A stretch of 64,000 nt of DNA from Melioribacteraceae bacterium. GTDB lineage: Bacteria; Bacteroidota; Ignavibacteria; Ignavibacteriales; Melioribacteraceae. The DNA is taken from NCBI GenBank assembly GCA_021739765.1, contig JAIPBD010000005.1:1-64000 (forward strand), read 5' to 3'. This document shows, piece after piece, positions 4,923 to 23,270 of this stretch (its first letter is position 1; the number at the start of each line of letters is the position of its first letter). The position numbers were made by a program, and so were the translations under genes. A model generated the notes under the pieces. That model ran no database searches. It was not told the origin of the DNA and was given only the letters and a program-made list of their open reading frames with translations.

Positions 4923-5528
4923 ATGAAAAGAATTATTACCTCATTCATACTTTTGATTTTATGTTTGACTTTCGTTCAATTAAAAGCTCAGGAAGACTTC
5001 AATGTTAAATTAGGTGTAATGCTTAAATCGGGTGATAAAATTGATCGTTTGAAATCGAGAGACAGAGCAAAAACCGGCGATAAAATACGAATTTTTGTGA
5101 ATCCTTCCGTAAAAAGCTATTCGTATGTATTTTATTCAGAAAGTGAAAAAACCTATTTAGTTAACGACAAATTTATCGACTATTCGGCAAATATTGTCAG
5201 GCCATTACAAATTCCATCAGCAACTGAATATATAGAATTTGACGGCGCCAGCGAAAATATTGGAATTACGATCATCACCAGTAAAGAGAGAATCCCAAGC
5301 CTGGATAACCTTTTCAAAAAAGAAGCGGAAGTCGCAACGAAGGAATGGAAATCCGTTATCGATCATATTAAAGATTTGGTAAAAACCGATTTAAGTATGA
5401 GTATGGACAAACCAATCAGCATGGCCGGAAACGTGAGAGACGCGGAATCTAGTTTTATCAGCAAACTTCAATCATTTAGTGGGGAAAAGATTATCATCAA
5501 GGATTATACAATTGAGATTAAAAAATAA
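4923..5528 (+). CDS. Secreted DUF4384-like protein
   Basis: This is the first gene of a six-gene envelope operon. It encodes 201 residues with a clear signal peptide (hydrophobic core, cleavage after LKAQ). The body from about residue 25 to 110 has the look of DUF4384: a GDKIRIFVNP strand, then SYVFYSESEKTYLV, then a beta-rich tail with IEF.....GITIITSK. In other bacteria DUF4384 is typically found in or beside caspase-family (C14) proteins, which fits this operon's caspase-like neighbours. The remainder is a charged helical segment. It starts at ATG after a strong AAGGGAG site. The next gene overlaps its 3' end, which implies translational coupling. Family assignment is by pattern and moderately sure; molecular function is unknown. 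Confidence 0.65.
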   Translation: MKRIITSFILLILCLTFVQLKAQEDFNVKLGVMLKSGDKIDRLKSRDRAKTGDKIRIFVNPSVKSYSYVFYSESEKTYLVNDKFIDYSANIVRPLQIPSATEYIEFDGASENIGITIITSKERIPSLDNLFKKEAEVATKEWKSVIDHIKDLVKTDLSMSMDKPISMAGNVRDAESSFISKLQSFSGEKIIIKDYTIEIKK

Positions 5529-7704
5529 AAAACTTCTTCGCTCGGTTCTTATCGCGAATGTCATTTTTACATTTATAATTGTCTTTTTGATCACGGTATT
5601 TGATCTAAATTGGAATGTGATTGACTATAAACTGAACGATCTGCTTTACAAATGGAATCTAGACTCCGGAAATGGTCCCAAACTTTCTAAGCAAGTAGTT
5701 TATCTAAATATAACCGATGAAACCTATAACAAATTAGAATACTACTCACTTGACCGAAAATTCCTCGGGGATGTAAACAAAACCCTTTCTGATCTTGGCG
5801 TTAACGGAATAATGTATGATCTTGTTTTCCGTTTGCCGAGCGATCCTGAAAAGGATGCCGCGTTTACGGAATCGTTAATTTATGCCGATAATATTTATTT
5901 ACCGGCGGGTCTGAGACTCAACCCCGAGAAAATTGGTTTTAACGAAAAAGAAGGCTCGAATTATTATAAAATTCTAAAAGAACGAAATCTGGGATTTCCA
6001 AAAGAATTAAATGAGGGGTCTCCGCTTTACGCCAGCGAGGCAGTAACTCAATTAAATCAATTTAATGAAGCAGCTTATTCAACCGGTCACATAACTACTA
6101 TCGCCGATCAGGATGGTATTTACAGACACTATCCGCTCATCGTCAAAGTTGACGAAGGATTTCTTCCCACCGTATCATTTGAAATGTTTCTCGATTATGT
6201 CGAAGTGCCAATCGATAGTCTGATTGTAGAATGGGGAGAAGCAATTACCATCCCAAAACTGAAAGATAGTTTTGTTGAAAAGGAAATAAAAATTCCGATC
6301 GATGAATCCGGAATGACCTTCATTCCTTACCCCGCCACGTGGAAAGATCTTCGTGAAAATAGTGTCGAAATCCATAAACTTTTAGAGTTTTATTCCGAAG
6401 AATCAAATTTTGATGAATTGTTAGAAAAGTTTGAAGGGAATTTTGTTGTTATTGGAGATGTCGCTGCCGGAATATCTGATCTTGGTCAAACCCCTCTCGA
6501 AACTGATGTTCCATTGGTAATTATTCACGCGACTCTGTTAAACTCTTATCTTACAAATTCTTTTTATAGTTACATTTCAACAACCACAACTCTATTTTGG
6601 ATTATACTTTTAGCTGCGGTGGGAGGGTTTTTGTCAATTCTCCACACTAATAAATTCTTATATATTTATAGTTTGTTCGTTGTTACAGCAATAATTCTGT
6701 TTTCTTACCTGCTTGTAGGATCTAAATTTTTTCTTCCGATCGGAACTATCGGAATGTCGTATTTGGCATCATTTGCTTCAATGGTCGCATTTTTACAAGT
6801 ATTCGGTTCCAGGGAACAAGCGTATATCCGGGATGCATTCTCAAAATATGTTCCCAAAAGTATCGTTGAAGAGCTTATCCAAAATCCCGATACGCTAAAA
6901 CTTGGCGGCGAGGAAAAATACATTTCAATTTTATTCTCAGATATAAAATCGTTTACTTCAATATCCGAAGAGTTGGAACCAAAGCATCTTGTCTCAATTT
7001 TAAATGAATATTTGACTGAGATGACGCAAGTAATACTTGAGCAGCGGGGAACGGTTGATAAATTTATCGGCGACGGAATTATGGCGGAGTTTGGCGCGCC
7101 TCTTGAATATCCTAACCACGAAGACGCCGCGGTTTCTGCCGGATTATTGATGCAGTTTAGATTAAGACAATTAAATGAGAGATTACACAAACAAGGAATA
7201 CCTCAATTTTTAACAAGAATTGGCATTAACTCCGGCCCTGTAGTAATCGGAAATATGGGTTCAAATCAAGTCTTTGATTATACGGCAATGGGGGATTCGA
7301 TAAATCTCGCCTCTCGATTGGAAGGCGCTAATAAAAAGTACGATTCGGATTTAATGATTTCGGAAAACACTTACAAAAATCTTTCAAAAGACAAATTCAG
7401 AGTTCGTCAATTGGATTATGTCTGCGTAAAAGGAAAAGTCCAACCCGTAAAAATCTACGAAGTTTATACTTTTATTGATGAAAGAATAAAAGACGAATTA
7501 AAATACTATCTGGAACATTACCAAAAAGGATTGGAATTATTTTTCGGCAGACAGTTTGGGGAATCAAGAAACGAATTTGAATCTGCTCTAAAATTTAAGT
7601 TGAACGATGCGGCATCATTAATGTTTTTGAACAGGATAGAAAAAGTCAGCGGTAAAAAATTAGATGATTCTTGGAATGGCGCGGTTACATTTTTCGATAA
7701 GTAG
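5512..7704 (+). CDS. CHASE2-domain class III adenylyl cyclase
   Basis: This inner-membrane signalling enzyme is predicted to make cAMP from ATP. An N-terminal membrane segment (about 9-29) is followed by a periplasmic CHASE2 sensor (about 30-340), three more membrane helices (about 359-430) and a cytoplasmic cyclase domain (about 470-650). Both metal-binding Asp residues are visible (D477 in FSDIK, D521 in FIGDG). Lys in VDKFIGDG and Asp in YTAMGDSIN are the adenine-specifying pair, and the Arg in NLASRLE is the transition-state residue, so it looks active and ATP-specific. The C-terminal tail is a short TPR-like helical region common in these cyclases. The start is uncertain. I chose TTG at 5512, with AAGG upstream and a 17-base overlap with the previous gene; GTG at 5479 would add 11 residues. 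Confidence 0.88.
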   Translation: MRLKNKKLLRSVLIANVIFTFIIVFLITVFDLNWNVIDYKLNDLLYKWNLDSGNGPKLSKQVVYLNITDETYNKLEYYSLDRKFLGDVNKTLSDLGVNGIMYDLVFRLPSDPEKDAAFTESLIYADNIYLPAGLRLNPEKIGFNEKEGSNYYKILKERNLGFPKELNEGSPLYASEAVTQLNQFNEAAYSTGHITTIADQDGIYRHYPLIVKVDEGFLPTVSFEMFLDYVEVPIDSLIVEWGEAITIPKLKDSFVEKEIKIPIDESGMTFIPYPATWKDLRENSVEIHKLLEFYSEESNFDELLEKFEGNFVVIGDVAAGISDLGQTPLETDVPLVIIHATLLNSYLTNSFYSYISTTTTLFWIILLAAVGGFLSILHTNKFLYIYSLFVVTAIILFSYLLVGSKFFLPIGTIGMSYLASFASMVAFLQVFGSREQAYIRDAFSKYVPKSIVEELIQNPDTLKLGGEEKYISILFSDIKSFTSISEELEPKHLVSILNEYLTEMTQVILEQRGTVDKFIGDGIMAEFGAPLEYPNHEDAAVSAGLLMQFRLRQLNERLHKQGIPQFLTRIGINSGPVVIGNMGSNQVFDYTAMGDSINLASRLEGANKKYDSDLMISENTYKNLSKDKFRVRQLDYVCVKGKVQPVKIYEVYTFIDERIKDELKYYLEHYQKGLELFFGRQFGESRNEFESALKFKLNDAASLMFLNRIEKVSGKKLDDSWNGAVTFFDK

Positions 7705-7732
7705 TATGTTGAATTTATTTTTGAGGTAATTA

Positions 7733-9517
7733 ATGAAAAAAATCACAATTGTGATTTTATTTTTAATGGTATCAGTTCCGATTTTTCCGCAATCGAGCAG
7801 AGTTTTTATTTCGCCGAAAGCAGATTCGCTTTCAAAATTGCTGCTGCAGAAACCGGAGGACTCGTTAATCCAAACTGAACTTATGCATGAATATTTGGCC
7901 GAAGCCAAACCGGAACTCGCACTTTTAGAAATTATGGATCTTGCAAATTCTGACAAAAAGTCTTTTTCGGCCAATGTGCAAAAGGCTGAAGTGTTATTCT
8001 GGTTGGAACGAAAAAGGGACGCCTTCAAATCCTTTGTTGAAGCATATTTGTTGGAGCCAACGACAGATAAATTGAAGTATTTAATAATTCTTGATTACGG
8101 GCTTGGAAACGAAAAACGAAGTATCAATAACCTCAGAAGAGAGTACGACAAAAATCACGAGTTTGCGCGGGAGATTGCGAATCTTTATCAAGATTTATTT
8201 ATCAACAATCGTTTATCGATTGCATTGGATGCTCAAAATCTATTGAAAAAATTCGATCGGGATGTTCATGATAAATACTTTCCAATGCCGGTAATAAATA
8301 TTATCGGATCGGAAGACGATCTCTATACGAAAAGTGATAATATAACTCTTACGATGAAAGTTGATCATAAGGTGCAATTACGCGAAATCAGTATTGACGG
8401 GAAAATAATATACACAACCGAAGGTAAGGTTTTAACTAATCCAACCGATGCTTTTAATAAAACATTAAGCGAAGATATTCCGGTTAAGGCTGGAATCAAT
8501 TCAGTTAATATTTCCGCGATCGATGTTTATGGGTACCGTACGGAAAAGAGTATTCAAGTAAACGGACTTAATTTTAGTAAAACCGGAGTAAGCAATTCAT
8601 CTTTAGTCGATTCTCTGAATCGCAATTATTTGTTGTTAAAATCATATTTCCCGGTTGACAGCTTGGTAACCGAAAAAGATTTAAGTATTAAATCAATTTA
8701 TTTATCGGGAAAAAACTCGAAGAGCGATCAAGAACTGCTTGAGCTTGTTTATTCTTTATTTACTGACGATCTGTCGGGGAAATTAAGTGAAAATAATATC
8801 CAATATTTGGTGAATGAGAACGCTTCCGAAAAAAATATGCGACTGGTTTTCGATAAATGGTTAATGGATGATATTACGCTAAGAACCAAAACATTTTTGT
8901 ATTTAGATGGAGACTGGGAAAAACTAAATAATAAATATTGGTTAAATCTGAATGACGGTAAATTAAATCTTGAAGAATATATTGTCAAATATCTACAAAA
9001 GAGTTCGGGCGGGCTATCCATTTTAATTGACGGAATGACAAGTGTGGATAGTACTGATTTAGGATCAATCTTAGAAATTGTTAACGGAACTCAAACACCT
9101 ACAAGCTTAATCATACTGAATCTGAAGGATAATGTCGAATCTTTAATATCTTCGTTTGGTATTCCAGGCGAATTGCCTGATTCACTTGGTAAATACTCTT
9201 TAGGATTGGTTGAACTAAATGAAACAATTCCTAATTCTTTTGCTGTTTATAATTCTGCAAAACAGATCGAACTGCTCAGTAATCCTGCTGTTATAGTTCA
9301 AAAGAAACATTCCCAGGAATTGGAGTTGCTGGATACAAAATTGAAAAGCGCCGGACTATCGAAATCAAAAAGAGAGTTAGTAAATATATTTTGTTCGGAT
9401 TGGAGAAGGTATGGCGAAATGATGAGATTTTATGAAGGTGTTTTTACTGCTGAGGATTTGTTCATCCAAGCTGAGGAATATTTAAGCCGGAACTCAGGAG
9501 GGGAAAATGAAGAATAG
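7733..9517 (+). CDS. Secreted TPR / Ig-like / degenerate caspase-fold protein
   Basis: This 594-residue exported protein (signal peptide ending VPIFPQ) is of no family I can name with certainty. Residues 25-155 look like TPR-type helical repeats. Residues 185-285 form an Ig-like sandwich with the KAGINSVNISAIDVYGY pattern often seen next to bacterial caspases. Residues 290-470 follow the order of elements of a caspase (C14) p20 domain: YLVNENASEKNMRLVFDKWL, then a strand TFLYLDGDW where GHG is expected, then SILIDGMTS where DACHSG is expected. The catalytic His would be Asp394 and the catalytic Cys Met435, so if the fold is right it is a pseudoenzyme. Its 3' end overlaps the next start by 11 bases. 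The caspase relationship is inference and needs structure prediction. Confidence 0.55.
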   Translation: MKKITIVILFLMVSVPIFPQSSRVFISPKADSLSKLLLQKPEDSLIQTELMHEYLAEAKPELALLEIMDLANSDKKSFSANVQKAEVLFWLERKRDAFKSFVEAYLLEPTTDKLKYLIILDYGLGNEKRSINNLRREYDKNHEFAREIANLYQDLFINNRLSIALDAQNLLKKFDRDVHDKYFPMPVINIIGSEDDLYTKSDNITLTMKVDHKVQLREISIDGKIIYTTEGKVLTNPTDAFNKTLSEDIPVKAGINSVNISAIDVYGYRTEKSIQVNGLNFSKTGVSNSSLVDSLNRNYLLLKSYFPVDSLVTEKDLSIKSIYLSGKNSKSDQELLELVYSLFTDDLSGKLSENNIQYLVNENASEKNMRLVFDKWLMDDITLRTKTFLYLDGDWEKLNNKYWLNLNDGKLNLEEYIVKYLQKSSGGLSILIDGMTSVDSTDLGSILEIVNGTQTPTSLIILNLKDNVESLISSFGIPGELPDSLGKYSLGLVELNETIPNSFAVYNSAKQIELLSNPAVIVQKKHSQELELLDTKLKSAGLSKSKRELVNIFCSDWRRYGEMMRFYEGVFTAEDLFIQAEEYLSRNSGGENEE

Positions 9518-10226
9518 ATTGTTCCTTTTGTTTCTATTTTCGTCGGTTGTTTTGACCGCCCAAGTCCCGTCTCATTTTCATTTGATAGCCATTGGTTCGG
9601 ATGGAAATGGAATTATTGAAGCTGAAGATTCAGAATCGATTTCCGAGAAAATTAAGGAACGATTTGTTGAAAGTGTTCAGGTGAGATTAAAATCCGTTAA
9701 ATCTTTTAAGCAAAATCTTGAGCAGACAGACGACATAAAACGGTTCTTTTCAGGAACATATACACTCTCGGATTCTGCGGATTTTTTTGTCATGACCTTG
9801 TTTGGTGCATGGAATGAGGGAAAGTTTGTCAGTAATAACGGCAATGAAATTTCAGCTGAATACATTTATAACTTTATCAGTTATCTGCCCGCAAAGGCAT
9901 CATTAACCATTATTGCTTCGCCGAAGGAATTTGCTTTCCCCGAAGAAATTTTTGCCCAATCCATAAGCGCGGATTATAATGGTAGACTTATTCTGTTCCT
10001 CACTTCAAATGAGGAAGTTGATTATGATGACGTGCTTTCGGAATTTGAGAATGTAATCGAGAATTTTGCCGATGAACCGGAACTGGTAGCGGATGAGAAA
10101 GGAAATATTCGATTCTCGGTTTGGTTAGCCAAAGTTTTAGAATATTTAAATACTGAGCAAGTAACTTATAAAGTTGTTCAAATAAATTCCGGTCCGGACT
10201 ATATCATCAATTCAACAAATAAGTAA
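9507..10226 (+). CDS. Small secreted protein, possible second degenerate caspase fold
   Basis: The 239-residue product has a signal peptide (VVLTAQ) and no recognisable domain at first sight. Its layout matches a bare caspase-like core. HFHLIAIGSD resembles the first strand (HALLIGI). A helical stretch of about 45 residues is followed by DFFVMTLFGAW at 92-102, where an active enzyme has FYFSGHG. LTIIASPKE at about 134-142 sits where DACHSG would be. Neither catalytic residue is present. It is translationally coupled to the similarly organised 594-residue protein upstream and lies 2 bases before the VWA gene, so it is clearly part of the operon. It could instead be an unrelated Rossmann-like domain. 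Confidence 0.5.
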   Translation: MKNRLFLLFLFSSVVLTAQVPSHFHLIAIGSDGNGIIEAEDSESISEKIKERFVESVQVRLKSVKSFKQNLEQTDDIKRFFSGTYTLSDSADFFVMTLFGAWNEGKFVSNNGNEISAEYIYNFISYLPAKASLTIIASPKEFAFPEEIFAQSISADYNGRLILFLTSNEEVDYDDVLSEFENVIENFADEPELVADEKGNIRFSVWLAKVLEYLNTEQVTYKVVQINSGPDYIINSTNK

Positions 10227-10228
10227 AA

Positions 10229-13045
10229 ATGAAAAGAATAATTTATTGTATAACATTTTGGTTTTTTATTTCTAACATCGCTCACGCTCAGGGCAAAACG
10301 GTAAATCTGAAACTAAATGCGCTCGATTTTAGCCGCTATCCGACTGTCGACCTTTTTGCGACGTTCACGGATGGAAATGGTGATCCGATTCAGCTGGACC
10401 AGATTGAAAAATCTAATAAAATTTTAAAGCATAATGGCACCATTGTAAATGTTCAAGACATAATTTCCGTTTATGATTTGAAAAGTAAAGGTGAGACTGA
10501 ACTTTACTTGACACTCGTTTTTGATAATTCTAAATCGATGCTGAAAAGAAATGATCTGTTAGAAAAAGCGGCGGAATCTTTTATTGATGGAATAACGCCG
10601 GGCGATAGAGTTTCAATAATTGATTTTGGAGATGAGCAGAAAAAAGAGACATTTATGCCTGAGCTTGAATATCCCGTCTATCCGAAACAAAGAATCGGCT
10701 TCAGCAATTCCAAAAAATTCTTACGCGAAAAGATAAAAACGCCATATTTCACTGATCGTACATTTATGTATGACGCACTCATTTATGCTTTATCGGTAAC
10801 CAAAAGAGCGGATGTGCTCGGTAAAAAAATCATTATCTTCTTCTCGGATGGAGATAATATCGGATCAGAAACTAACTACGATAAAGTTCAGGAAGTTTCA
10901 AAATTATACGATATACCTATTTACGCAATCGATCTAAACATCAGAACCAATAGTCAGCTTCAAGATTTGGCCAAACAGAGTCGGGGCGAATATTATATTG
11001 TGAATGAACCACGAGATTTGGCGCCGGTTTACCAATCCTTGCTTAAACTTTTACGAAGTCAATACCGTATTTCTTATCGCTCACCCGACGAAGGAGTTAA
11101 TAGCGATTACTATAATGTTAATCTAAATCTACCTGACTTAAATAATGTATCAGATGTACAGACCTTTAAGGTTGAAGGGGAAAAAATCGGATATTTTAAT
11201 TTGGCTTATCTTGAAAGCCAAGGTAAAGAATCAATCGATAAATATATGGATTACTTGATCGAATATCCGGTTTCAAAATATGCTGATGATGTTCAACTTC
11301 GAATGGGGAACTATTGGTTTGCGAGAGGTGAGTACGGAAACGCACTTGGTGTTTATAATAAAATATTGAGAAACGAAAATTCATCGAGTTATTTTTCAGC
11401 GTTATCCCAAAAAGCTGACTTGCTTCTGAAGGCGGAAGATTGGTTCGCGGCAAAAGAGGCCTACAATCAGATTGTAAATAGCAGGGGAGGCTCCGATCTG
11501 AAACCAAAAGCGCTTCTCGATCTGGCGAGTTTACAGAGTAGTGAGGGGAATTTTATGACTGCCCTTGATACATATTCAAAACTGGTGACAGATTTTGAAG
11601 GAACTGAATTTGCGAGCGAAGGGCTGTTGCAATCTTCTTTGCTCAATCTTGAAATGGGTAATCTGAATCAAGCAGTTACAAATTTGAATAATATAGTATC
11701 AAATTATGGTGAAACTAATTCCGCACTTTTTGCCGAATACGAATTAGGCAAAATTGCGCAATCACAAAACGAATTGGATAAAGCGCTGGCTCATTACGAT
11801 AAAGTAATTAATTCAAATATTGATCCTGACATTAGAGAACAAAGCACTTTCGAATCGGCAAATATAATGATGAGTCTCGGCAATTATGCGGGGGCTATCG
11901 GGCTGCTCAGTTCATTGGTTCAGACTTCATCTAACCTGGGATTGGTATCGCAAGGTAACGCGCTGCTGGTGGAATCTTTTATTAAAACGGGGGATTTACT
12001 TCAAGCGCAACAAACATTTAATTCAATGCCGTTAAATCAACAACAAAATCTGTTAGGCAGGGGAGAAATTTCAGCATCCCTCCCTGGAAACTATATCGTA
12101 AGTTTGATGAATGCCGCCCATATTTCCGCCGCAGGTTCGGAAATTTTAAGTAACTCCATAAGGTTGATCGAGGATGCGAATCTGAGAGCAAAGTATTCGA
12201 TTCTCGGACAAATATATTATTTCACGATAAACTCAGCTACAACTACCATTAACGCCGCAATTCCCGTAAAACCGGAATGGATAGAACAAGGGCTTTTGGA
12301 AAATCCAAACGCGGGCGTGTATTCGATAGTTGATAATCAAATTCGTGCTGTAACTAAATCTTATAATACATCATCACAATCCTTTCAATTCAATGTGATT
12401 GAAAGCGGACATTACATGCTGCTCACCGAAGCACCCAAAATTATTACGTTATATGATATTTATTTCGACGTTGGGAAAGCCTCGATTAGAAAGGATGCGG
12501 AGAAAAATCTTTATGAAATGATTGATATGCTTAAAGAATATCCGGCCGCAAAAATGGAAATCGCCGGTCATACGGATTCGACCGGAACGGATGAAGTTAA
12601 TATGGAGCTTTCTCTAAGCAGGGCAACGAGTATTAAAAGATTTATGGTTAAGAACGGAATAGAAGCAAATCGTCTTGATGTTAAAGGATATGGAAGCCGG
12701 TTTCCCGTAGCCCCGAATATCAATGAGGAAAATAGACAGAAAAATAGACGAACGGAGTTCATTGTTATCAGTGGTTTGGAGCAAGTTGCTACGGATCATG
12801 ATAATTCGGAAGAACGGTACGCTGTGGTAATTGCATCATATAATTCTTTGCGCGAAGTTACGGAACAGAAATCATTCATCAATAAACGTGGATATCAGGT
12901 TTCGGTAATTACAAGTATAAATGGTTCAAAATCCACTTATGAACTTTTACTTGGTGTTTATTCCGAAAAAAGTACAGCGGAAAAAGAAGCAAATTCATTT
13001 ATCGGCGTTTTTCAACAATTTGAACCACTGATTAAAAAACTGTAA
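10229..13045 (+). CDS. VWA-TPR-OmpA-SPOR envelope protein
   Basis: This 938-residue secreted protein (signal peptide ending NIAHAQ) has an unusual domain order. A von Willebrand factor A domain covers about 80-290, with an intact MIDAS: D99-N-S101-K-S103, a Thr in FTDRTFMYDAL and Asp in FFSDGD. Helical TPR repeats cover about 310-650. An OmpA/MotB-type peptidoglycan-binding domain spans about 740-850 (YFDVGKASIRKDA, AGHTDSTGTD, RRTEF). A SPOR-like domain at about 863-938 (YAVVIASY...GVYSEKSTAEKEA) would recognise denuded glycan strands. It therefore probably links peptidoglycan to a protein partner held by the VWA/TPR part. It starts 2 bases after the previous stop and ends 5 bases before the CHAT gene, so it is central to the operon. 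Confidence 0.85.
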   Translation: MKRIIYCITFWFFISNIAHAQGKTVNLKLNALDFSRYPTVDLFATFTDGNGDPIQLDQIEKSNKILKHNGTIVNVQDIISVYDLKSKGETELYLTLVFDNSKSMLKRNDLLEKAAESFIDGITPGDRVSIIDFGDEQKKETFMPELEYPVYPKQRIGFSNSKKFLREKIKTPYFTDRTFMYDALIYALSVTKRADVLGKKIIIFFSDGDNIGSETNYDKVQEVSKLYDIPIYAIDLNIRTNSQLQDLAKQSRGEYYIVNEPRDLAPVYQSLLKLLRSQYRISYRSPDEGVNSDYYNVNLNLPDLNNVSDVQTFKVEGEKIGYFNLAYLESQGKESIDKYMDYLIEYPVSKYADDVQLRMGNYWFARGEYGNALGVYNKILRNENSSSYFSALSQKADLLLKAEDWFAAKEAYNQIVNSRGGSDLKPKALLDLASLQSSEGNFMTALDTYSKLVTDFEGTEFASEGLLQSSLLNLEMGNLNQAVTNLNNIVSNYGETNSALFAEYELGKIAQSQNELDKALAHYDKVINSNIDPDIREQSTFESANIMMSLGNYAGAIGLLSSLVQTSSNLGLVSQGNALLVESFIKTGDLLQAQQTFNSMPLNQQQNLLGRGEISASLPGNYIVSLMNAAHISAAGSEILSNSIRLIEDANLRAKYSILGQIYYFTINSATTTINAAIPVKPEWIEQGLLENPNAGVYSIVDNQIRAVTKSYNTSSQSFQFNVIESGHYMLLTEAPKIITLYDIYFDVGKASIRKDAEKNLYEMIDMLKEYPAAKMEIAGHTDSTGTDEVNMELSLSRATSIKRFMVKNGIEANRLDVKGYGSRFPVAPNINEENRQKNRRTEFIVISGLEQVATDHDNSEERYAVVIASYNSLREVTEQKSFINKRGYQVSVITSINGSKSTYELLLGVYSEKSTAEKEANSFIGVFQQFEPLIKKL

Positions 13046-13050
13046 AAATT

Positions 13051-16000
13051 ATGAAACGAATTTTCATATTAGCCATAATTCTCATTTTTTCTAACATAAA
13101 CGCGCAGAATTTAGATGAAGACTGGCGTTTGATAGATCATGCATTCAAACAAAAAAATTATTCAGATGTAATCCGGCTCAGCCCGGAGTTCATAAAAACT
13201 TTGGAAATCAATAATCTGAAGAAGCAGTTAATATTGCCTTATTTCTATTTAGCGGTTAGTCTTGCAAATACCGGAGATTTGGAAGGCGCGGAATCGGCTT
13301 TTAGTAAAGCCAAAAACCTGGCTGTACGTGAAGGCGATATTACAAACGCCTCGAAAATTGATGATGAGAGATCGAGAATTTATTGGAATCTCTCAGCTGA
13401 ATTAAAAGAGACCAATCCGCAACAGGCATTGTCGCTTTTATCGAAAATTATTGATATTACATTTGAGAACAACAACTATTCGTTCCGGGCAGCAGCAATG
13501 TACCGTGAATCGGAACTGCATTTCTTGCTTGGAAATGTTGATCTCTCGATTTTATCGCTTGAACACGCGATGAGATTTTTTCCGAACATCCCGGAATCAC
13601 AAAGCAAATTAAGAGAAGGAATTCGTTCAAGATTAATTGAATTGTACCTTGGAACCGGTCAAGCCGAAAAGGCGGAGGAACTAAAACAATTTGTTTCGGA
13701 GAAAAATCAACTTGCGATAACTTTCAGACTTGCAGAAGAATTGGAAAATTCCGGTCAGTATATGAAAGCTGACTCAACTCTTCAATCTGTTCAGCAATTT
13801 GTTTTTGAAACATCGAACAATAAGTTGATTGAGGATTTTGTTAAAAAACGTATTTCGCTTTACAGATTTAGTGATAAGCTATCTGATGGACTTGCAGAAC
13901 TTAATACAATTATTGTACAATTGGACACTTCGTTTAATATTTCCCCGGATTTGTTTTTTAATCTCAGCAAACTTTATGTCCTGGCTAACCTCGAAGAGGG
14001 CAGGATTGCCGATGCAAATAAAAGTATTGTGGATTTAAATGAAAAAATAAAATCAAAGGAAATACCGGGTTCATTGTCACCGAATTTATCTGCTTTAAAA
14101 GCCGACGTTGCTTATTTACAAGGAGAATATTCCGATGCCATTCTTTTATATAATTCAACTTTAGAAAATTCTTCGACTCTCAGAAGGGACGATCTTTACA
14201 GCGTTTGGAATAATATTGCTTTATCCTACATAAAAATCGGGGATTATAAATCCAGTCTGACATATCTAAATAAACTGGAAATTGATTCGGAATCGAACGG
14301 AGAATTTAATTATCAAGTTCAAGCGGCATTAAATATTGGTGTTGCGTTAATTAAACATGGTTCGGTCGTTGAAGCAATCAAAAGTTTTCAAAAGGCGAAA
14401 AAGTTAGCTGAAACGAAGGAACTGCCTAAATTTGAAATTTTAGCGACGGTAAAATTGGCCGAAGCTTATAAACTTGCCGGGCAACCGACTTCAGAATTCT
14501 TATTGGAAATTAAAAGGAAGTATGAATCTATTACAAATCCCCACCTAAAACTTCAGGTTGTTGGAACACTCTCTCAGTTTGAAAAAAGTGACGGAAACTT
14601 TGAGAGCGCAAAATCATACTTGATTGATGCTTTCAATCTCTCCAATAAATTAGGATTGATAAATTCCGCAATTCCACTCGCTATCGAATTGGGGGATATT
14701 GAATTATTGGGCGGGAATGGCTCGACTGCTTATATGTTTTACGGGTTCGCAGCTCATTATTATTTAAATAGTGACCAAATTGAAGAAAAAATTCCGATGC
14801 TTTTGAGACTTAGCCAATGTTACACCGTTGAGTCGAAATTTGATACAGCTAAACAGTATTTGGATCAATCTTTCTCAAATTTATACTCCGGCGAAAAAAA
14901 CGAATTTATTAATCCCAATCCGGATAAAGTTTTAGATTTCTTCTATTATTCACTAACACTTACTGCTTTAAGCTATAACAATTATGCGGAAGGAACCCAA
15001 AAAAATAATTTGCAATTGATTTTTGAAGCTTACACACAGAGCGAAATCGCGGTCGAAATGCTTACCCAGAATTTTTATGCCCAACTTTCCTCCGCCGGTA
15101 AAAAAGAAGATGAATGGCTCAAAAACATTAATTCATTTCACCTATTAATCTCCATCGCTGCTGATTTGTTCAGTCGTACGAACGATGCCAAATATCTTGA
15201 AACCGCGTTCAATACAAACGAAAAAATGAGAGCGCAAACGTTCATTTTGGATGTTGGTCAAAAATTAGTTTCCCAGATTAATGATCCTTTAGTAGAAGAA
15301 TTGACATCCCTCTCCGATATTTTTGAAACAGATTTATATGCTTCAGTCGATATTGAAGTTGACTATTCGGAAGATGTCGGCGAATTTGGCACAAGAGGTC
15401 TCAAAATAACAAAATCCGAAGACGCGGAAGAATCAATAAACGTAAGAGATAAATACAACGATATTGTCGGAAAGTTAAAAAACGCAAATTCAAAAGCCGT
15501 TGATTTAGTTTCCATCAATACCCTAACTCTTTCGGCGGTAAAAGATTTTATAAAACCGCACGAAGTTGTTCTTAATTATTTTACTGCAGATGAAGCGCTC
15601 TATCTCTTTTTTATTTCCAAAGAAGAACAAACACTTACTAAAATTGATATTAACCAAAAAGAGCTAAATCAAACTGTTGAGAGTTTTCGCCAAGTTGTGC
15701 AGAATCCAAAGGATCAAAGTTTCGAAATAATGGCAAAAGCCATCTATAAGAAACTAATCGCTCCTGTCGAATCGAAGTTAGCGGCAAAAAAAATACTAAT
15801 TATTCCTTCGGGTAAATTGAACAACTTACCGTTTGCAGCGTTAAAATCTGACACAAAATTTTTGATGGAAACTAATCCAATTGTAATTCTTCCGAATGCA
15901 ACATTTTTACAGTTCGCCGATTCCCAAGTAAAATCTTCGAACCTTCAATCCTTGTTGGCAATCGGAAATCCAAGCAATTCTTTTACCTCAGCTTTACCGG

Positions 16001-16542
16001 GAGCTGAAAAAGAGGTGAAAGAAATAAATGAGATATACCCTGAAAGCGATCTTTTAATCCGCAGCAACGCAAAAGAAGGAATCCTCAAAAAGACGCTCGG
16101 GAATTACAATATTGTACATTTTGCTTGTCACGGTTTATTTAATGCTGATTATCCTTTAATGTCCGCGCTTGCTCTGGCGCCGGATAACTTGAATGACGGT
16201 CGTCTCGAAGTTCATGAAATTTATAATATAAATATGCCGAATACCGAACTTGTTGTAATGTCCGCATGTGAAACCGGGCTGGCACAAATTAAAAAGAACG
16301 ATGATATGATTGGCTTGGTACGTGGATTTTTATATGCCGGAGTTCCTAATGTTGTAGCGAGTTTGTGGAAAGTTGATGATATTGCAACTTCGAGATTGAT
16401 GACTAATTTTTATAAGTTTTTGAATAACGGTTTAAATAAAGTCGACGCATTAAGATCGGCACAATCCGAATTAATAAACTCTGCTGAATTTAATCATCCT
16501 TTTTACTGGTCGGCTTTTATTATGAATGGATATGGTATTTAA
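13051..16542 (+). CDS. Exported TPR-CHAT protease
   Basis: A signal peptide (FSNINAQ) leads into about 700 residues of TPR repeats. The C-terminal CHAT domain spans roughly 850-1163. CHAT is a caspase/separase-clan cysteine peptidase fold. The catalytic His1027 lies in VHFACHG and Cys1073 in VMSACETG, both matching the family consensus, and the C-terminal F.HPFYWSAFIMNG is also typical. The protein is thus predicted to be an active protease whose TPR solenoid recruits substrate or regulators. Most studied CHAT proteases are cytoplasmic; a signal peptide places this one in the periplasm or outside. It is the last gene of the operon. The dyad stays intact here while the two caspase-like neighbours appear dead, which suggests a protease/pseudoprotease regulatory arrangement. 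Confidence 0.88.
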   Translation: MKRIFILAIILIFSNINAQNLDEDWRLIDHAFKQKNYSDVIRLSPEFIKTLEINNLKKQLILPYFYLAVSLANTGDLEGAESAFSKAKNLAVREGDITNASKIDDERSRIYWNLSAELKETNPQQALSLLSKIIDITFENNNYSFRAAAMYRESELHFLLGNVDLSILSLEHAMRFFPNIPESQSKLREGIRSRLIELYLGTGQAEKAEELKQFVSEKNQLAITFRLAEELENSGQYMKADSTLQSVQQFVFETSNNKLIEDFVKKRISLYRFSDKLSDGLAELNTIIVQLDTSFNISPDLFFNLSKLYVLANLEEGRIADANKSIVDLNEKIKSKEIPGSLSPNLSALKADVAYLQGEYSDAILLYNSTLENSSTLRRDDLYSVWNNIALSYIKIGDYKSSLTYLNKLEIDSESNGEFNYQVQAALNIGVALIKHGSVVEAIKSFQKAKKLAETKELPKFEILATVKLAEAYKLAGQPTSEFLLEIKRKYESITNPHLKLQVVGTLSQFEKSDGNFESAKSYLIDAFNLSNKLGLINSAIPLAIELGDIELLGGNGSTAYMFYGFAAHYYLNSDQIEEKIPMLLRLSQCYTVESKFDTAKQYLDQSFSNLYSGEKNEFINPNPDKVLDFFYYSLTLTALSYNNYAEGTQKNNLQLIFEAYTQSEIAVEMLTQNFYAQLSSAGKKEDEWLKNINSFHLLISIAADLFSRTNDAKYLETAFNTNEKMRAQTFILDVGQKLVSQINDPLVEELTSLSDIFETDLYASVDIEVDYSEDVGEFGTRGLKITKSEDAEESINVRDKYNDIVGKLKNANSKAVDLVSINTLTLSAVKDFIKPHEVVLNYFTADEALYLFFISKEEQTLTKIDINQKELNQTVESFRQVVQNPKDQSFEIMAKAIYKKLIAPVESKLAAKKILIIPSGKLNNLPFAALKSDTKFLMETNPIVILPNATFLQFADSQVKSSNLQSLLAIGNPSNSFTSALPGAEKEVKEINEIYPESDLLIRSNAKEGILKKTLGNYNIVHFACHGLFNADYPLMSALALAPDNLNDGRLEVHEIYNINMPNTELVVMSACETGLAQIKKNDDMIGLVRGFLYAGVPNVVASLWKVDDIATSRLMTNFYKFLNNGLNKVDALRSAQSELINSAEFNHPFYWSAFIMNGYGI

Positions 16543-16552
16543 TTAAGTTAAT

Positions 16553-16626
16553 GGCGCGTTCGTCTAGCGGTTCAGGACGCCGCCCTCTCAAGGCGGAGAT
16601 CACGGGTTCGAATCCCGTACGCGCTA
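16553..16626 (+). tRNA. tRNA-Glu (anticodon CTC)
   Basis: This is a full 74-base cloverleaf: acceptor GGCGCGT/ACGCGCT, D stem GTCT/GGAC, anticodon stem CCGCC/GGCGG around loop CTCTCAA (anticodon CTC, reads GAG), and T arm ACGGG-TTCGAAT-CCCGT, with discriminator A. The body closely matches bacterial tRNA-Glu. Two oddities are visible: pair 1:72 is G-U rather than G-C, and no CCA is encoded. It starts 10 bases after the CHAT gene stop and is followed by a terminator. Confidence 0.93.
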
Positions 16627-16629
16627 CTC

Positions 16630-16655
16630 AAAGGGAATTTTAGTTCCCTTTTTTT
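16630..16655 (+). terminator. Rho-independent terminator after tRNA-Glu
   Basis: An 8-bp stem (AAAGGGAA with TTCCCTTT) and a 6-base loop run directly into a T tract (16649-16655), just past the tRNA 3' end. It would end the tRNA transcript and any read-through from the six-gene operon. Confidence 0.9.
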
Positions 16656-18082: not shown

Positions 18083-21000
18083 ATGACTAGCAAATTCTCT
18101 AAAATAATTTTTCTTACTCTTATCATTCCTATATTTATATCCGGGCAAAACCTGGAAATATTGGATTCCAATCCCAATTCAATAACTATAAGTTTTAAGC
18201 CCAATTTTAATATTGATACTATTTCAATCAATGATAAACAATATCTGCAAATTGACTTTTTAGGCTCAGTTTCGGATTCGTTTGGGGACAGTTTACAATA
18301 CCTTCCATTCAAAATTATAAACTTGGGAGTGCCTTCCGAATTTGGCAATACGATTCAAGTTTTATCTCAGACGGAGAAAATAATAAATGGTGAAATTCTG
18401 CCTTCCCCTGAATTGAAAAAATATGAATTTATGGGCGAATTTCAGTTTGCCGAAAAATTAAATTCCACGAATGAGAAACTAAAACAAATTAACACCGTTG
18501 AGTTTGCTGACTTTGGTTATGTTCGAGAATTAGGAGTTCAATCGATAAAATTAAATCCTGTTCAATTGCTTGAGGAATCAGCGAGGATAAAACTTATCAC
18601 ACAGATCAATTTTAAAATTAACTATTCTCCTCAAAAATCTGATCTGACTGAAATCAATTCTGATTTTCTTAGCCAAGTCGTGGAAAATTTTGATGTATCT
18701 CAAAAATGGGGGAAAGCAAACAGAACTCTACAAAAAAAGAGTGATTCAAATCTGGCTGATGGAATCTGGTACAAATTTACTGTTGCTGAGGAAGGTATTT
18801 TTAGAATTACGCGATCTATGCTTACAGATTACGGAATTGACGCAAGTACCGTAGACCCCCGAACGATAAAAATTTATAATAATGGCGGTTATGTTTTACC
18901 GGAAAACATTGATTCTGAGAGACCGGATGGAATTATTCAAAATTCGATTCTTGTGGTTGGAGAGAGTGATGGCTCGTTCGACGCGAATGATTATATTTTG
19001 TTCTATGCTCGAACAACAAATTTCTGGGAATATGATTCGACTTTGGCACGCGTCGCGAGGAATAAACATTGGTTTGATAATTCAAACTATTATTGGATTA
19101 CTTCCGGTGGTGACCCCGGAAAACGCATGGTTGAAAAGTCGGGCGAGGCAAAACAAGATTCTTATTCACAATCGGTTACTTCTGCGTATAAGTATCTTGA
19201 TGACGATAAAATTAATCTGCATAAATCCGGCAAGGTCTATTTTGGCGATGAATTAAACAGCTCAAGAAATTCTATCACATATACTACTGCGCTTCCTCAG
19301 TTAGTGAGTGGAAGCAAAATCGATTATGTAATTCAATTTGCGAACGCGGCTGACCGGAATATTAACCTTAATGTTTTGGAAAACAATGTTCCGATTCTTT
19401 CTTTTAATATGGCAGGAACTACGGATTACGTATTCGGAAGGGTTTATAATCGGACGGCTTCAATTTCCGGGACATTAGCCGATAACAGAAGTTTACTGAA
19501 ATTTCAATTTGACGGAACCGGTCCGACTGATATCGGATACGTTGATTTTTTTGAAATTGAATATCAAAAAAATCTATATGCGGAAAATGATCAATTATTC
19601 TTCTTTTCTAAGGATACTACCGCCAATATTTTCTACACTTTAATGAATTTTAGTAACAGCGACATCTTTGTTTTCGATGTATCGGATTTTGCGAACGTGA
19701 AAATAATTACAAATGAATCGATAAGTGCCGGTCAACTCTCCTTTACTGCGGCAGAAAAGGAAGATAATATCAGTAAATATCTTTCGGTTAATTCTGCTAA
19801 ATTTCTTGCTCCCGGGAAGGGAACCAAAGTGGAAAATTCAAATATTAGAGGAATTACGCAAGGAGCGGAGTTAATTGTAATATCAAATAAAATCTTTTCT
19901 GATGAAGTTGAACGATACGCAAATTATCGGCAAAATGAATCGCCGTTTCCGAAATCGACTCAAATTCTGTACGTTGATGAAATTTACAATGAATATTCCG
20001 GTGGCATGGTAGATCCTACTTCCATCAGAGATGCTGTAAAGGATGCGTTTGAGAATTGGAACACGAAACCCGAATTTGTGCTGCTTTTTGGTGATGGAGA
20101 TTATGATTATTTAGATAAGGAAGCATTTGGAAGAAATTTTGTTCCTACGTATCAGAAAGATGTTAGCCTCTCCCGTTTACTTTACGAACTTCTTGTCTAT
20201 CCCACGGATGATTATTTCGTTCAAATCGCCGGGGGAAATGCGGATAGAAAAGTTGATCTTGCAACCGGAAGACTAAACGTGAATAGTTTGGAAGAAGCAA
20301 AAATCATGGTTGATAAAATTATCAGTTATGAAAATAATGAAGATAAAGGTTTGTGGAGAAACACAATTACTTTAGTTGGTGATGATGGCTGGACCTCCCA
20401 CGGCGATGATGGCGCCCTTCATACTTCACAATCCGAAGATATTTCGAATAATTATATTCCAAATACTTATAATCAAAATAAAATTTACTTATCAGCGTAT
20501 CCGACTGTTAATACAGGAGCGGGGAGACGAAAACCGGATGTGAATGACGCTATCGTAAATGCGATGAATAGCGGTAATTTAATTCTCAACTTCGTCGGTC
20601 ACGGCAATCCGGAAGTCTGGGCTCACGAAAGAGTTTTTGAGAAAGCAACAACTATACCCCGAATTAATAATGATCGACCATTTTTCTTGACCGCGGCGAC
20701 TTGTGATTTTGGGAAATATGACGATCCCTCTACGCCAAGCGCGACTGAAGAAATGTTGTTGATTGAACAAGGTGGATTAATTGCCGGATTTACAGCTTCG
20801 CGCCCTGTTTATGCTTCTCCGAATCATTCGTTAAATCGGGCATTATATTCAAACCTGCTCCAGACAAAGGATGCTGATAATCTACCTTTAGAAATCGGCA
20901 AAGCTTTGTTTAATGCGAAACAAATAGTCTCCGGAGAAAATGCCGAAAAATTTCACATTCTCGGTGATCCGACACTTAGATTAGTTTTACCGACGCTCCC

Positions 21001-22060
21001 GGTTACAATCGATTCAGTAAATAAAAGTCCGCTCAATCTTGATGTTCAATTAAGCGCCCTTGGCGATGTGAATTTAAACGGAACTATTAAAAATTTGAAC
21101 GGTACTCTAAATAATAACTTTAATGGAGAAGCCATAGTCAGCGTTTTTGATAGTGAAAGATCATTTCATTTGGATGATATCAATTACGATATGGGGCTGC
21201 AAGGAGGATTAATTTTTAGGGGACGGGCTTCGATCAAAAATGGTAAATTTTCTACTTCGTTTGTTGTTCCGAAAGATATTTCTTATGAGAACAAAAATGG
21301 TAAAATAGTTGCGTATATATTCAACAATGAAACTGATGGAATCGGCTCTACTAATAAAATAATTATCGGTGGAAGCGATTCTACAGCGGTAAATGACAAA
21401 CTCGGACCCGAAATTGATATTTATTTTGACGATCTCTCTTACTCCAATTCTTTTCTGGTTAAGCCCGATTTTAATCTCCTGGTTCGACTTGAAGATGAGA
21501 CCGGATTAAACACTACCGGAACGGGTGTAGGACATAAATTGGAAGGCGTTCTGAACGCGAATATTGAAAATACAATCGATTTCACCAATCATTTCGTTGG
21601 TGATCTTGATGCCGGTGGAAAGGCGGGATTGATTGATTACCGGTTTAGTAATTTATCGATGGGTGAATATAATATCGAAGTAAAAGCTTGGGACGTATTC
21701 AATAATTTTTCAACCGAAGAATCAATATTCAAGGTTGTTAACGCAAATGATGCCTTAATCGAGGATATTTACAATTATCCAAATCCATTTTCATCAACCA
21801 CTTCTTTTACGTTTAAACACAGCCTTGATAGTGATTTTGATGTAAATGTTAAGATTTATACTATTGCCGGAAGACTGATTCGCGAAATAGACCAATTATC
21901 TTTGCCTGCTTCTGAGCGATTTGTGAAAATTCACTGGGATGGAACAGATAATGATTTTGATATCATTGCTAATGGAACATATTTATATAAATTAATTATT
22001 AAAACTTTAGATGGTAATGTCTCTAAGAGTTTTCTTGGAAAACTTGCCGTAATTAGGTAA
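18083..22060 (+). CDS. porU: T9SS C-terminal signal peptidase/sortase PorU (C25 family)
   Basis: PorU is the gingipain-like cysteine protease that removes T9SS sorting domains at the cell surface and attaches cargo to the lipid anchor. This 1325-residue protein has a signal peptide (FISGQ) and the typical N-terminal region (WYKFTVAEEGIFRI, FDANDYILFYA). Its C25 catalytic domain has His840 in NFVGHGNPE and Cys874 in TAATCDFGKYDD. The end is a C-terminal domain with NYPNPFSSTTSF, as known for PorU itself, and this domain is retained. porV follows after 38 bases, the usual pairing, because PorV shuttles cargo to PorU in the attachment complex. The start ATG is preceded by an A/G-rich stretch. 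Confidence 0.92.
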   Translation: MTSKFSKIIFLTLIIPIFISGQNLEILDSNPNSITISFKPNFNIDTISINDKQYLQIDFLGSVSDSFGDSLQYLPFKIINLGVPSEFGNTIQVLSQTEKIINGEILPSPELKKYEFMGEFQFAEKLNSTNEKLKQINTVEFADFGYVRELGVQSIKLNPVQLLEESARIKLITQINFKINYSPQKSDLTEINSDFLSQVVENFDVSQKWGKANRTLQKKSDSNLADGIWYKFTVAEEGIFRITRSMLTDYGIDASTVDPRTIKIYNNGGYVLPENIDSERPDGIIQNSILVVGESDGSFDANDYILFYARTTNFWEYDSTLARVARNKHWFDNSNYYWITSGGDPGKRMVEKSGEAKQDSYSQSVTSAYKYLDDDKINLHKSGKVYFGDELNSSRNSITYTTALPQLVSGSKIDYVIQFANAADRNINLNVLENNVPILSFNMAGTTDYVFGRVYNRTASISGTLADNRSLLKFQFDGTGPTDIGYVDFFEIEYQKNLYAENDQLFFFSKDTTANIFYTLMNFSNSDIFVFDVSDFANVKIITNESISAGQLSFTAAEKEDNISKYLSVNSAKFLAPGKGTKVENSNIRGITQGAELIVISNKIFSDEVERYANYRQNESPFPKSTQILYVDEIYNEYSGGMVDPTSIRDAVKDAFENWNTKPEFVLLFGDGDYDYLDKEAFGRNFVPTYQKDVSLSRLLYELLVYPTDDYFVQIAGGNADRKVDLATGRLNVNSLEEAKIMVDKIISYENNEDKGLWRNTITLVGDDGWTSHGDDGALHTSQSEDISNNYIPNTYNQNKIYLSAYPTVNTGAGRRKPDVNDAIVNAMNSGNLILNFVGHGNPEVWAHERVFEKATTIPRINNDRPFFLTAATCDFGKYDDPSTPSATEEMLLIEQGGLIAGFTASRPVYASPNHSLNRALYSNLLQTKDADNLPLEIGKALFNAKQIVSGENAEKFHILGDPTLRLVLPTLPVTIDSVNKSPLNLDVQLSALGDVNLNGTIKNLNGTLNNNFNGEAIVSVFDSERSFHLDDINYDMGLQGGLIFRGRASIKNGKFSTSFVVPKDISYENKNGKIVAYIFNNETDGIGSTNKIIIGGSDSTAVNDKLGPEIDIYFDDLSYSNSFLVKPDFNLLVRLEDETGLNTTGTGVGHKLEGVLNANIENTIDFTNHFVGDLDAGGKAGLIDYRFSNLSMGEYNIEVKAWDVFNNFSTEESIFKVVNANDALIEDIYNYPNPFSSTTSFTFKHSLDSDFDVNVKIYTIAGRLIREIDQLSLPASERFVKIHWDGTDNDFDIIANGTYLYKLIIKTLDGNVSKSFLGKLAVIR

Positions 22061-22098
22061 AATTAAAGTTTGTATCGAATTCTTTTTGGAGGAATAAA

Positions 22099-23265
22099 AT
22101 GAAAAAACAAATGATGTTGCTTCTGATGCTTATTAGTATTGTAAGTATGCGGAATAATATAATAGCTCAAGGTGAAGCAGCGGTTCCTTTCCTACTTCTG
22201 GCACCGGATTCACGCGCGGGTGGATTAGGAGAATCGGGAGCGGGATTAGCGGATAATTCGGCGGCTATTTTCTGGAATCCCGCCGGTATTGCTTTCCTAA
22301 CGGGAACGGAGGTCGGCTTTACACATAGTAACTGGCTTCCCCAGTTCAACCTGGATCTCTTTTATGATTACGCGACTTACAGGCAATATGTTGAAGAACT
22401 TGGCGGAAGTGTTACAGCAAGTGTTACCTATATGAATTTTGGGGAATTTGTTAGAACTTCATCGGTTTCACCCGATCCGATCGGTACTTTCCGGGCGTTC
22501 GATGCTGCGCTGACTCTTGGTTATGCCGCTAAGGTACATAACGATTGGGGGCTTGGTTTTAATTTCAGACTAATTCACAGCAGGTTGTCCGATCAAGGTA
22601 CAGAATTAGAAAAAGGTGAAGGTGTTGCTACCTCAGTCAGTTTTGATATTGCCGCGATGTGGAGACCCGAAGAATTATTCTATATACCCGGTTTGGGAGA
22701 TATGGGCAACAGGCTTAGTCTTGGTTTCAATCTTAGTAATCTCGGACCAAAAATTTACTATATCGATCAAGAACAAGCCGATCCGATCCCGACTAATTTT
22801 AGACTTGGGCTGGCAATGAAATTGTTTGAAGATGAATTTAATTCATTAACCTATACTTTGGATTTTAGCAAACTGCTTGTATCTCGTGGCGATTCTCTGA
22901 CTAAAAAAGATGAATTTTATGAAGCAGTTATTTCGGCTTGGGCCGACGAACCGCTTAGTGAAGAGATCAGAGATATCGTAACCTCAATGGGATTCGAATA
23001 TTGGTACGGAACACCGGAAGATTTTATGTTTGCGGTTAGAACGGGTTTCTTTTATGAAGATCCAAGTTACGGTAACAGAAAATTTATGTCGCTTGGCGCG
23101 GGTATCCGATATGATTTATATGGGTTTGACTTCAGTTACATCTCAACCGATTTACTACCGGGTGGAGAAAAAAATCATCCGCTTTCGAATACACTCAGGT
23201 TTACTATTTCAATCGGTTGGGGAGCGTTGACTCAACAATCGCATGGATTTCCTCGAGGAATATAA
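22099..23265 (+). CDS. porV: T9SS outer-membrane shuttle protein PorV
   Basis: PorV is a FadL-like outer-membrane barrel that collects cargo from the translocon and presents it to PorU. The 388-residue protein begins with a signal peptide (IIAQG). It has the hallmark PFLLLAPDSRAGGLGESGAGLADNSAAIFWNPAG start and FTHSNWLPQF of the family, then alternating beta strands to a C-terminal SIGWGAL. It has a good GGAGG site before the ATG and sits directly behind porU. It is the only protein here that I would call PorV proper; two shorter relatives lie at 60029 and 61033. Confidence 0.92.
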   Translation: MKKQMMLLLMLISIVSMRNNIIAQGEAAVPFLLLAPDSRAGGLGESGAGLADNSAAIFWNPAGIAFLTGTEVGFTHSNWLPQFNLDLFYDYATYRQYVEELGGSVTASVTYMNFGEFVRTSSVSPDPIGTFRAFDAALTLGYAAKVHNDWGLGFNFRLIHSRLSDQGTELEKGEGVATSVSFDIAAMWRPEELFYIPGLGDMGNRLSLGFNLSNLGPKIYYIDQEQADPIPTNFRLGLAMKLFEDEFNSLTYTLDFSKLLVSRGDSLTKKDEFYEAVISAWADEPLSEEIRDIVTSMGFEYWYGTPEDFMFAVRTGFFYEDPSYGNRKFMSLGAGIRYDLYGFDFSYISTDLLPGGEKNHPLSNTLRFTISIGWGALTQQSHGFPRGI

Positions 23266-23270
23266 TTTAA

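Follow-up and report, generated by a model that had tools for sequence, protein, structure and literature searches.

The nearest known relatives of the gene set described here, six genes at positions 4923-16542 of a 64,000-nucleotide stretch of a Melioribacteraceae contig (JAIPBD010000005.1; the whole stretch is called the window below), are CHASE2 receptors whose partners are FecR or outer-membrane proteins. According to the available excerpts of the papers cited here, the outer-membrane protein NsrA of Sinorhizobium meliloti works with the CHASE2 adenylate cyclases CyaD1, CyaD2 and CyaK (PMC7529298, PMC13001267, PMC5498481), and the BiofilmReg operon of Burkholderia joins a LysM-FecR protein to a CHASE2 histidine kinase (PMC5192318). 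The ligands of CHASE2 were described as largely unknown as of 2016 (PMC5192318). In Trichodesmium, a caspase fold and CHASE2 are fused in one protein, and pseudo-orthocaspases are caspase homologues that have lost the catalytic dyad (PMC3501461, PMC2853523, PMC6426788). In the same body of excerpts, discussion of bacterial caspase homologues centers mostly on cell death.

The window's system consists of two separable modules, a cyclase pair (g1-g2) and an envelope set (g3-g6), where g1 to g6 denote the six window genes; L and G numbers denote loci and genomes of the comparison set. This two-module make-up, the recurrence of peptidases near g1-CHASE2 pairs and the varying outputs of the receptors (cyclase or SpoIIE phosphatase) are new here. 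Among the matches listed from full-text literature on CHASE2, DUF4384 or periplasmic CHAT, a scope that leaves out most subscription papers, we found no description of this gene set.

Domain identities and conservation of the six genes

The initial annotation had described six tight genes on one strand, including a CHASE2 adenylyl cyclase, a VWA-OmpA-SPOR protein and a CHAT protein, all of which we recover (Table 1). The genes lie on the plus strand with intergenic spacings from g1 to g6 of -50, 28, -11, 2 and 5 nucleotides (nt), the first of which counts g2 from its earliest possible start, GTG 5479; the later TTG agrees better with the relatives. The layout of g2 is an N-terminal transmembrane (TM) segment, the CHASE2 ectodomain, further TM segments and a class III cyclase domain, within which D488, K528, D532, D606, N609 and R613 are identical in 6/6 aligned rows. 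Given the roles that these residues have in the family, including the adenine-type Lys/Asp mapping, g2 is by its sequence a CHASE2 receptor in which the class III adenylyl-cyclase site is complete. In g6, TPRs precede the CHAT domain, and H1023, H1027 and C1073 are identical in 7/7 aligned rows, with H1027 presumably being the catalytic histidine known from the family. Pfam matches in g5 comprise VWA (E value 2.9e-10), TPRs, OmpA (1.6e-20) and SPOR (7.6e-5). OmpA and SPOR are peptidoglycan-binding domains in other, known proteins, which suggests a role of g5 as wall anchor. Against the NCBIfam model for PorE of the type IX secretion system (T9SS), g5 reaches 82.5 bits versus a 600-bit cut-off, through its OmpA part only, and the six genes include no MoxR AAA+ ATPase of the MoxR-vWA ternary conflict systems.

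Two of the annotated features stand in part. Signal peptides had been assigned to five proteins (g1, g3, g4, g5 and g6), and by hydropathy each of them has a hydrophobic core of 11 residues at its N-terminus (mean 2.4-3.3); a TM test over 19 residues is passed by g1 and g3 only. In g2, one TM-like segment is N-terminal and three more follow. The exported proteins would probably lie in the periplasm. The window's g1 falls below the Pfam cut-off for the proposed DUF4384 (E value 0.19; 12.2 bits vs a gathering score of 27), and its orthologues match DUF4384 in 4/6 cases (best 1.8e-4) and, about as well, DUF7131 in 3/6 (best 5.4e-4). When a widened g1 family is compared with the C-terminal domain of papain-DUF4384 proteins using hhalign, the match reaches 91.5% (E value 8.6e-7; five controls at most 2.2%). 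It is this profile-profile homology that supports a DUF4384-like g1, the Pfam matches alone being weak.

The caspase-like pseudoproteases annotated in g3 and g4 have no Pfam caspase match, and Pfam detects no Peptidase_C14 anywhere in the window's genome; profile comparison gives the two proteins moderate support. The orthologues of g3 match TPR and Glucodextran_B, an immunoglobulin (Ig) domain, and other genomes of the order encode secreted Ig-caspases. One apparent argument for a pseudocaspase was discarded: the Ig plus C-terminal domain of g3 matches a 19-caspase profile (93.2%, E value 3e-7), and the Ig part accounts for the match. Compared on its own with the Ig of secreted caspases, that part scores equally (93.1%, E value 3.2e-7), so what the match demonstrates is an Ig domain in common and no caspase. 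By hhalign, the C-terminal domain of g3 aligns with C14 profiles at P values of 1.5e-4 to 1.1e-3 (51% at best), in a comparison where eight negative controls were no better than 0.021 and a CHAT positive control gave 6e-6; other set-ups give 0.014-0.032. The YAGHG motif of caspases aligns with YLDG-DW of g3, and DACFSG, judged by eye, has as its counterpart an IDG stretch that contains no cysteine. The GHG and DxC motifs are missing in 8/8 g3 proteins, and both residues are kept in 19/19 aligned C14 caspases. For g4, caspase alignments give P values of 3.1e-4, 8e-4 and 2.6e-3, and 0.057 against an Ig-C14 set. An alignment-free model of g4, of low confidence (predicted local distance difference test score, pLDDT, of 42), has caspase-family entries as its four best PDB matches (E values 0.025-0.12), namely two procaspase-8 chains, a caspase-3-containing entry whose matching chain is unchecked, and c-FLIPL; none of the 171 matches reaches an E value of 0.001 or below, and HcgC, a non-caspase, ranks fifth and sixth. 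On these profiles g3, scoring above all eight negative controls, is a probable pseudocaspase with moderate support, and g4 is probably a second, also with moderate support. If the caspase match is right, the catalytic dyad would be gone from both, and only CHAT looks catalytic among the operon's caspase-fold proteins.

Conservation of the gene set had been fixed beforehand as a test of the annotation, and its outcome does not refute the annotation. A search with g3 matches 8/165 genomes of the order, the window's own included, and 9/392 genomes in a sample of the class (E value at most 1e-20); in the additional one, G748 of another order, the match runs off the contig, and the 11 kb upstream contain neither g1 nor g2. 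Seven loci from the order (L018-L024) were compared as relatives. All six genes are kept in the same order in four of them (L018, L020, L022 and L023), while three are partial: L021 has g1 and g3-g6 without g2 (its g4, aligned at 18% identity, was identified by position and not by BLAST), L019 has g3-g6 only, and L024, a contig fragment, has the end of g2 followed by g3, g4 and g5. At the contig edge of this fragment, a CHAT C-terminus (L024:6225-7304) lies on the opposite strand directly after g5, perhaps as a misassembly. Identity to the window ranges from 18% (g4) and 21% (g3) up to 45% (g2 and g5).

For the flanks, we compared eight neighboring genes of the window with the loci of the relatives, which reach approximately 3.5-16 kb downstream in six cases and further upstream in two. 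The sole matches are in three loci and concern the upstream gene, at its C-terminal end with the T9SS tail; nth, HD, PorU and the three flanking genes that follow have no match there. Because the flanking genes are not kept, the conserved unit ends at the limits of the operon, and because the set is kept in distant relatives while the eight flanking genes are not, chance is excluded. Across the phylum, g3 finds matches in 29/395 genomes (E value at most 1e-3), full-length only in the window's genome and G127; the remaining matches are short and mostly to the TPR part, and none of 13 weak places inspected contains the operon. A scan of genome contigs with g5 yields eight loci matching the OmpA region only.

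Modules and the peptidases beside them

The distribution of g1 extends beyond the six-gene operon. It occurs at 24 places in 19/165 genomes, and 14 loci, those of the operon included, have it directly upstream of a CHASE2 gene. In 11/14 cases this pair has a clan CD peptidase no more than approximately 10 kb away, and the type of peptidase varies. CHAT is found in six (the window, L018, L020, L022, L023 and L269, the last being a compact g1-g2-CHAT set), and a secreted C14 caspase with its dyad kept (5/5) in five (L188, L230, L231, L234 and L271). The order is caspase-g1-g2 in L230, the arrangement is divergent in L271, and the g1 frame of L231 appears broken. The three pairs without a peptidase (L229, L263 and L265) sit on contigs of 3.8, 11 and 6.9 kb. 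The output also varies, as the CHASE2 protein of L188 carries a SpoIIE phosphatase in place of the cyclase. A g1 without an adjoining CHASE2 gene is seen in G074-G077, L021 and L264, and in L264 a caspase precedes g1. In L265:258-4373, three tandem g1 copies are followed by a CHASE2 cyclase split in two frames (1143-2444 and 258-1088).

All eight genomes with g3 carry g1 (P values, without kinship correction, of 6.6e-9 when genomes are counted and 1.6e-6 when genera are). In six of them the co-occurrence is built in because g1 is in the same operon, and the informative cases are G078, with three g1 copies and a cyclase on another contig (L265), and G053 (L264). In a tree of 29 cyclases, g2 falls in a clade of 12 (support 100/100) apart from the FecR type; the clade consists of g1-associated cyclases and four without g1 in view.

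The association of CHASE2 with CHAT and caspase domains, which the initial annotation had invoked from other bacteria, holds in further and separate gene sets. CHASE2 is present in 140/165 genomes, and in 12 of 19 CHASE2 loci hand-picked from these 140 we observe a second operon type, consisting of an approximately 350-aa protein, FecR, an 800-aa protein and a CHASE2 cyclase. Two TPR-CHAT genes (approximately 820 and 1850 aa) flank the FecR-CHASE2 cyclase operon in four of these loci (L173/L174, L175, L176 and L177) and in two additional ones (L227 and L228). A CHAT search that scored at most four candidates per genome returns at least 21 places matching g6 at an E value of 1e-60 or below, of which seven are g6 itself; among the other 14 listed, 12 have a CHASE2 cyclase at a distance of at most 14 kb, and these 12 come from six genomes belonging to three genera. 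All 15 non-g6 CHAT proteins inspected keep His and Cys, and 13 of them are near CHASE2 cyclases. For C14, a sample of 59 genomes has 34 places, all covered by 28 loci, and CHASE2 is in view in 10 of these loci (P value 3.5e-10, assuming four CHASE2 genes per 3.5 Mb and not corrected for kinship). The typical order there is CHASE2, a 310-aa protein, papain-DUF4384, a 170-aa protein and an Ig-caspase.

Several sets combine a caspase, papain-DUF4384 and CHASE2, as in L188:1749-11054, which has the SpoIIE output and an FGE-sulfatase-like gene, and L192:2668-11031, with similar sets in L199-L202, L205-L207 and L209; no description of such sets was found in the literature searched. In L191:6579-11929, the gene before the CHASE2 cyclase encodes an exported protein that matches transglutaminase weakly, below the Pfam cut-off, and is possibly a further peptidase-fold partner.

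Table 1. Features of the operon and its 3' end, in window coordinates
Feature	Position	Strand	Description
g1	4923..5528	+	201-aa exported DUF4384-like protein
g2	5479..7704	+	CHASE2 receptor adenylyl cyclase; may instead start at TTG 5512
g2 CHASE2 periplasmic sensor domain	5578..6627	+	Pfam 1.7e-32
g2 class III cyclase catalytic domain	6919..7455	+	Pfam Guanylate_cyc 2.2e-26
g3	7733..9517	+	594-aa exported TPR-Ig protein, probable pseudocaspase domain
g3 caspase-like region (approximate)	8555..9322	+	hhalign to C14 profiles; His/Cys motifs missing
g4	9507..10226	+	small exported 239-aa protein, possible second pseudocaspase
g5	10229..13045	+	exported VWA-TPR-OmpA-SPOR scaffold
g6	13051..16542	+	exported TPR-CHAT protein
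g6 CHAT domain	15730..16530	+	Pfam 9.6e-73; H1027 codon 16129-16131, C1073 codon 16267-16269
tRNA-Glu(CTC)	16553..16627	+	begins 10 nt past g6 stop codon
terminator-like hairpin	16630..16651	+	directly 3' of tRNA-Glu; possible transcript end

The gene 5' of the operon is divergent. At the other end, the operon and tRNA-Glu may share a transcript; terminator-like sites in the scan number 7 versus 9.0 expected by chance, so that the position of the hairpin is the sole argument for it, and the promoter scan (46 sites vs 40.8 expected) carries no weight. In the extended flanks compared, tRNA-Glu was not found beside the operon in relatives. Just downstream (18083-26246), the window encodes PorU (950 bits), a member of the PorV/PorQ family and, at 909 bits, an inactivated M6-like metalloprotease of the T9SS-dependent type, the last being another pseudoprotease near the operon.

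Mechanism and rival explanations

The initial annotation had proposed a single periplasmic, proteolytic sensing module that signals to the cyclase. Conservation of the set and the recurrent linkage lend this proposal partial support; the single module gives way to two separable ones, in which only CHAT looks catalytic. Starting from what is established, namely the domain identities, the catalytic residues of cyclase and CHAT, the conservation of the unit and the recurrent linkage of clan CD peptidases to g1-CHASE2 pairs, we tentatively favor a modular trans-envelope system: a protease complex in the periplasm, anchored to the wall, would gate the CHASE2 receptor and so set cytoplasmic cyclic AMP (cAMP). 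One module would comprise the small DUF4384-like periplasmic g1 and the receptor g2 with its cytoplasmic adenylyl cyclase output, and the other would comprise the peptidoglycan-associated g5 scaffold, the catalytic TPR-CHAT protein g6 and one or two dyad-less, probably caspase-fold proteins. The g3-g5 assembly would most likely act as a sensor of wall or outer-membrane state, holding or releasing the CHAT protease, which may cleave a target, perhaps g1 or the CHASE2 ectodomain; alternatively, the complex itself may change. Either event would alter the cAMP made by g2, to be read by cyclic-nucleotide (cNMP)-binding regulators; the candidates, possibly of CRP type, are five cNMP-binding genes over the cut-off in the window's genome. 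No other protein of the set combines several TM segments with an enzyme of cytoplasmic type, which makes g2 the evident route from the exported proteins to the cytoplasm. The outside-in direction, proteolysis as the trigger and the wall as the stimulus are presumed in this scheme, as is tethering to the wall during action.

The exchange of peptidase and output around a g1-CHASE2 core is the pattern expected of a receptor gated by periplasmic peptidases, and the related gene sets point to a receptor that, in this group of bacteria, signals into the cell under the control of caspase-type proteases located outside the inner membrane. A more general form of this idea is possible but doubtful: that in a whole family of trans-envelope systems caspase-type proteases (secreted caspases or CHAT) and dead caspase-fold partners, in the manner of animal c-FLIP, switch CHASE2 receptors from the periplasm, with exchangeable outputs (cAMP or phosphatase), and that the window represents a branch in which CHAT is catalytic and the caspases are pseudoenzymes. 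Relative to the initial annotation, the finding as a whole is strengthened by the linkage with other proteases and outputs and weakened by the moderate support for the pseudocaspases. If true, the pseudocaspase reading would provide a bacterial parallel to pseudocaspase regulation, with active and dead versions of one fold on the same receptor pair in different genomes. More broadly, pairing of an exported caspase or CHAT protein with DUF4384-CHASE2 would give both families a common, testable role.

Several observations weigh against a protease-gated receptor with pseudocaspase partners. The strong match of g3 to secreted caspases stems from its Ig part, its C-terminal domain alone varies between P values of 1.5e-4 and 0.032 by set-up, and an alignment-free model of that domain (pLDDT 39) has no caspase among the matches listed; the caspase support for g4 is no better than that for g3. 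The linkage counts rest on related, partly hand-picked loci. VWA, OmpA, SPOR and TPR are generic envelope parts, and the operons of G078 and G009 lack g2, so g3-g6 may work without g2 in cis; in these two genomes a partner would have to act in trans, from L265 in G078 and, in G009, from L236, where a g2-clade cyclase is encoded elsewhere in the genome.

These last observations are also what would be seen if g3-g6 formed a structural or enzymatic envelope complex, for wall binding or the maturation of exported proteins, that g1-g2 regulates or merely shares a promoter with, and no signal passed from protease to cyclase. That g1-g2 also occurs without g3-g6, and that g5 is composed of generic wall-binding parts, fits such a complex. 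We nevertheless consider it rather unlikely, given that every g3 genome carries g1 somewhere and that two peptidase types, C14 and CHAT, attach to the same g1-CHASE2 pair. The caspase-fold proteins, CHAT included, might instead be binding or adaptor domains, with the signal being a change of assembly and not a cleavage. If g3 and g4 are indeed caspase relatives without a dyad, the fold would be used non-catalytically in this operon; this explanation is quite unlikely in view of the dyad's conservation in CHAT (7/7 orthologues and 15/15 other proteins inspected) and in 19/19 aligned C14 relatives.

A function in phage defense or cell death, in the manner of Pycsar or Craspase, is highly improbable, even though PADLOC models of Pycsar cyclases match the catalytic domain of g2 (best 2.3e-23) and solved CHAT proteins weakly resemble g6 (E value 2.5e-4). 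The generic cyclase domain is the sole Pycsar match among the six proteins, and no cognate effector lies beside the cyclase. PADLOC matches are otherwise confined to the OmpA domain in g5, where ZorB models align; g1, g3, g4 and g6 have none at an E value of 0.01 or below, and the protease and its partners look exported.

Comparison with known systems

Set beside described systems, the protease-gated receptor that we tentatively favor shares individual elements with each. The CHAT proteins of Craspase, known from solved structures, have a CHAT domain like that of g6 (a weak match), a TPR part and a His/Cys dyad; Craspase is RNA-guided and cytoplasmic, whereas g6 looks exported. On pSymB of S. 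meliloti (L120), a gene for a 1219-aa FecR-TPR protein stands directly 5' of a CHASE2 cyclase gene, and we take the two to be NsrA and CyaK, the record being unannotated there. Unlike the window, this pair has no CHAT, caspase, DUF4384, VWA, OmpA or SPOR match; conversely, the six window genes have no FecR match, in contrast to the FecR-CHASE2 type, and FecR is present in paralogous operons of the relatives.

In the cyanobacterial caspase-CHASE2 fusion, as far as the excerpts go, the caspase is predicted to be cytoplasmic, unlike the proteins of the window, and among pseudo-orthocaspases some may be exported by twin-arginine translocation (TAT), with no tie to CHASE2 described in the same excerpts. 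In a gene cluster of magnetotactic bacteria, mtxA is followed by a CHASE2 adenylate cyclase gene, the element shared with the window, and the excerpted text mentions no peptidase or VWA-OmpA scaffold there (PMC4439547). The four-gene BiofilmReg operon differs from the window in its kinase output, with no peptidase-like protein described in the excerpted account, and resembles it in that a peptidoglycan-binding periplasmic protein adjoins the CHASE2 receptor (PMC5192318). Finally, the NsrA system of S. meliloti is like the window in having a CHASE2 receptor cyclase, and there an outer-membrane partner is required for the cyclase to respond to a signal from outside (PMC7529298, PMC13001267).

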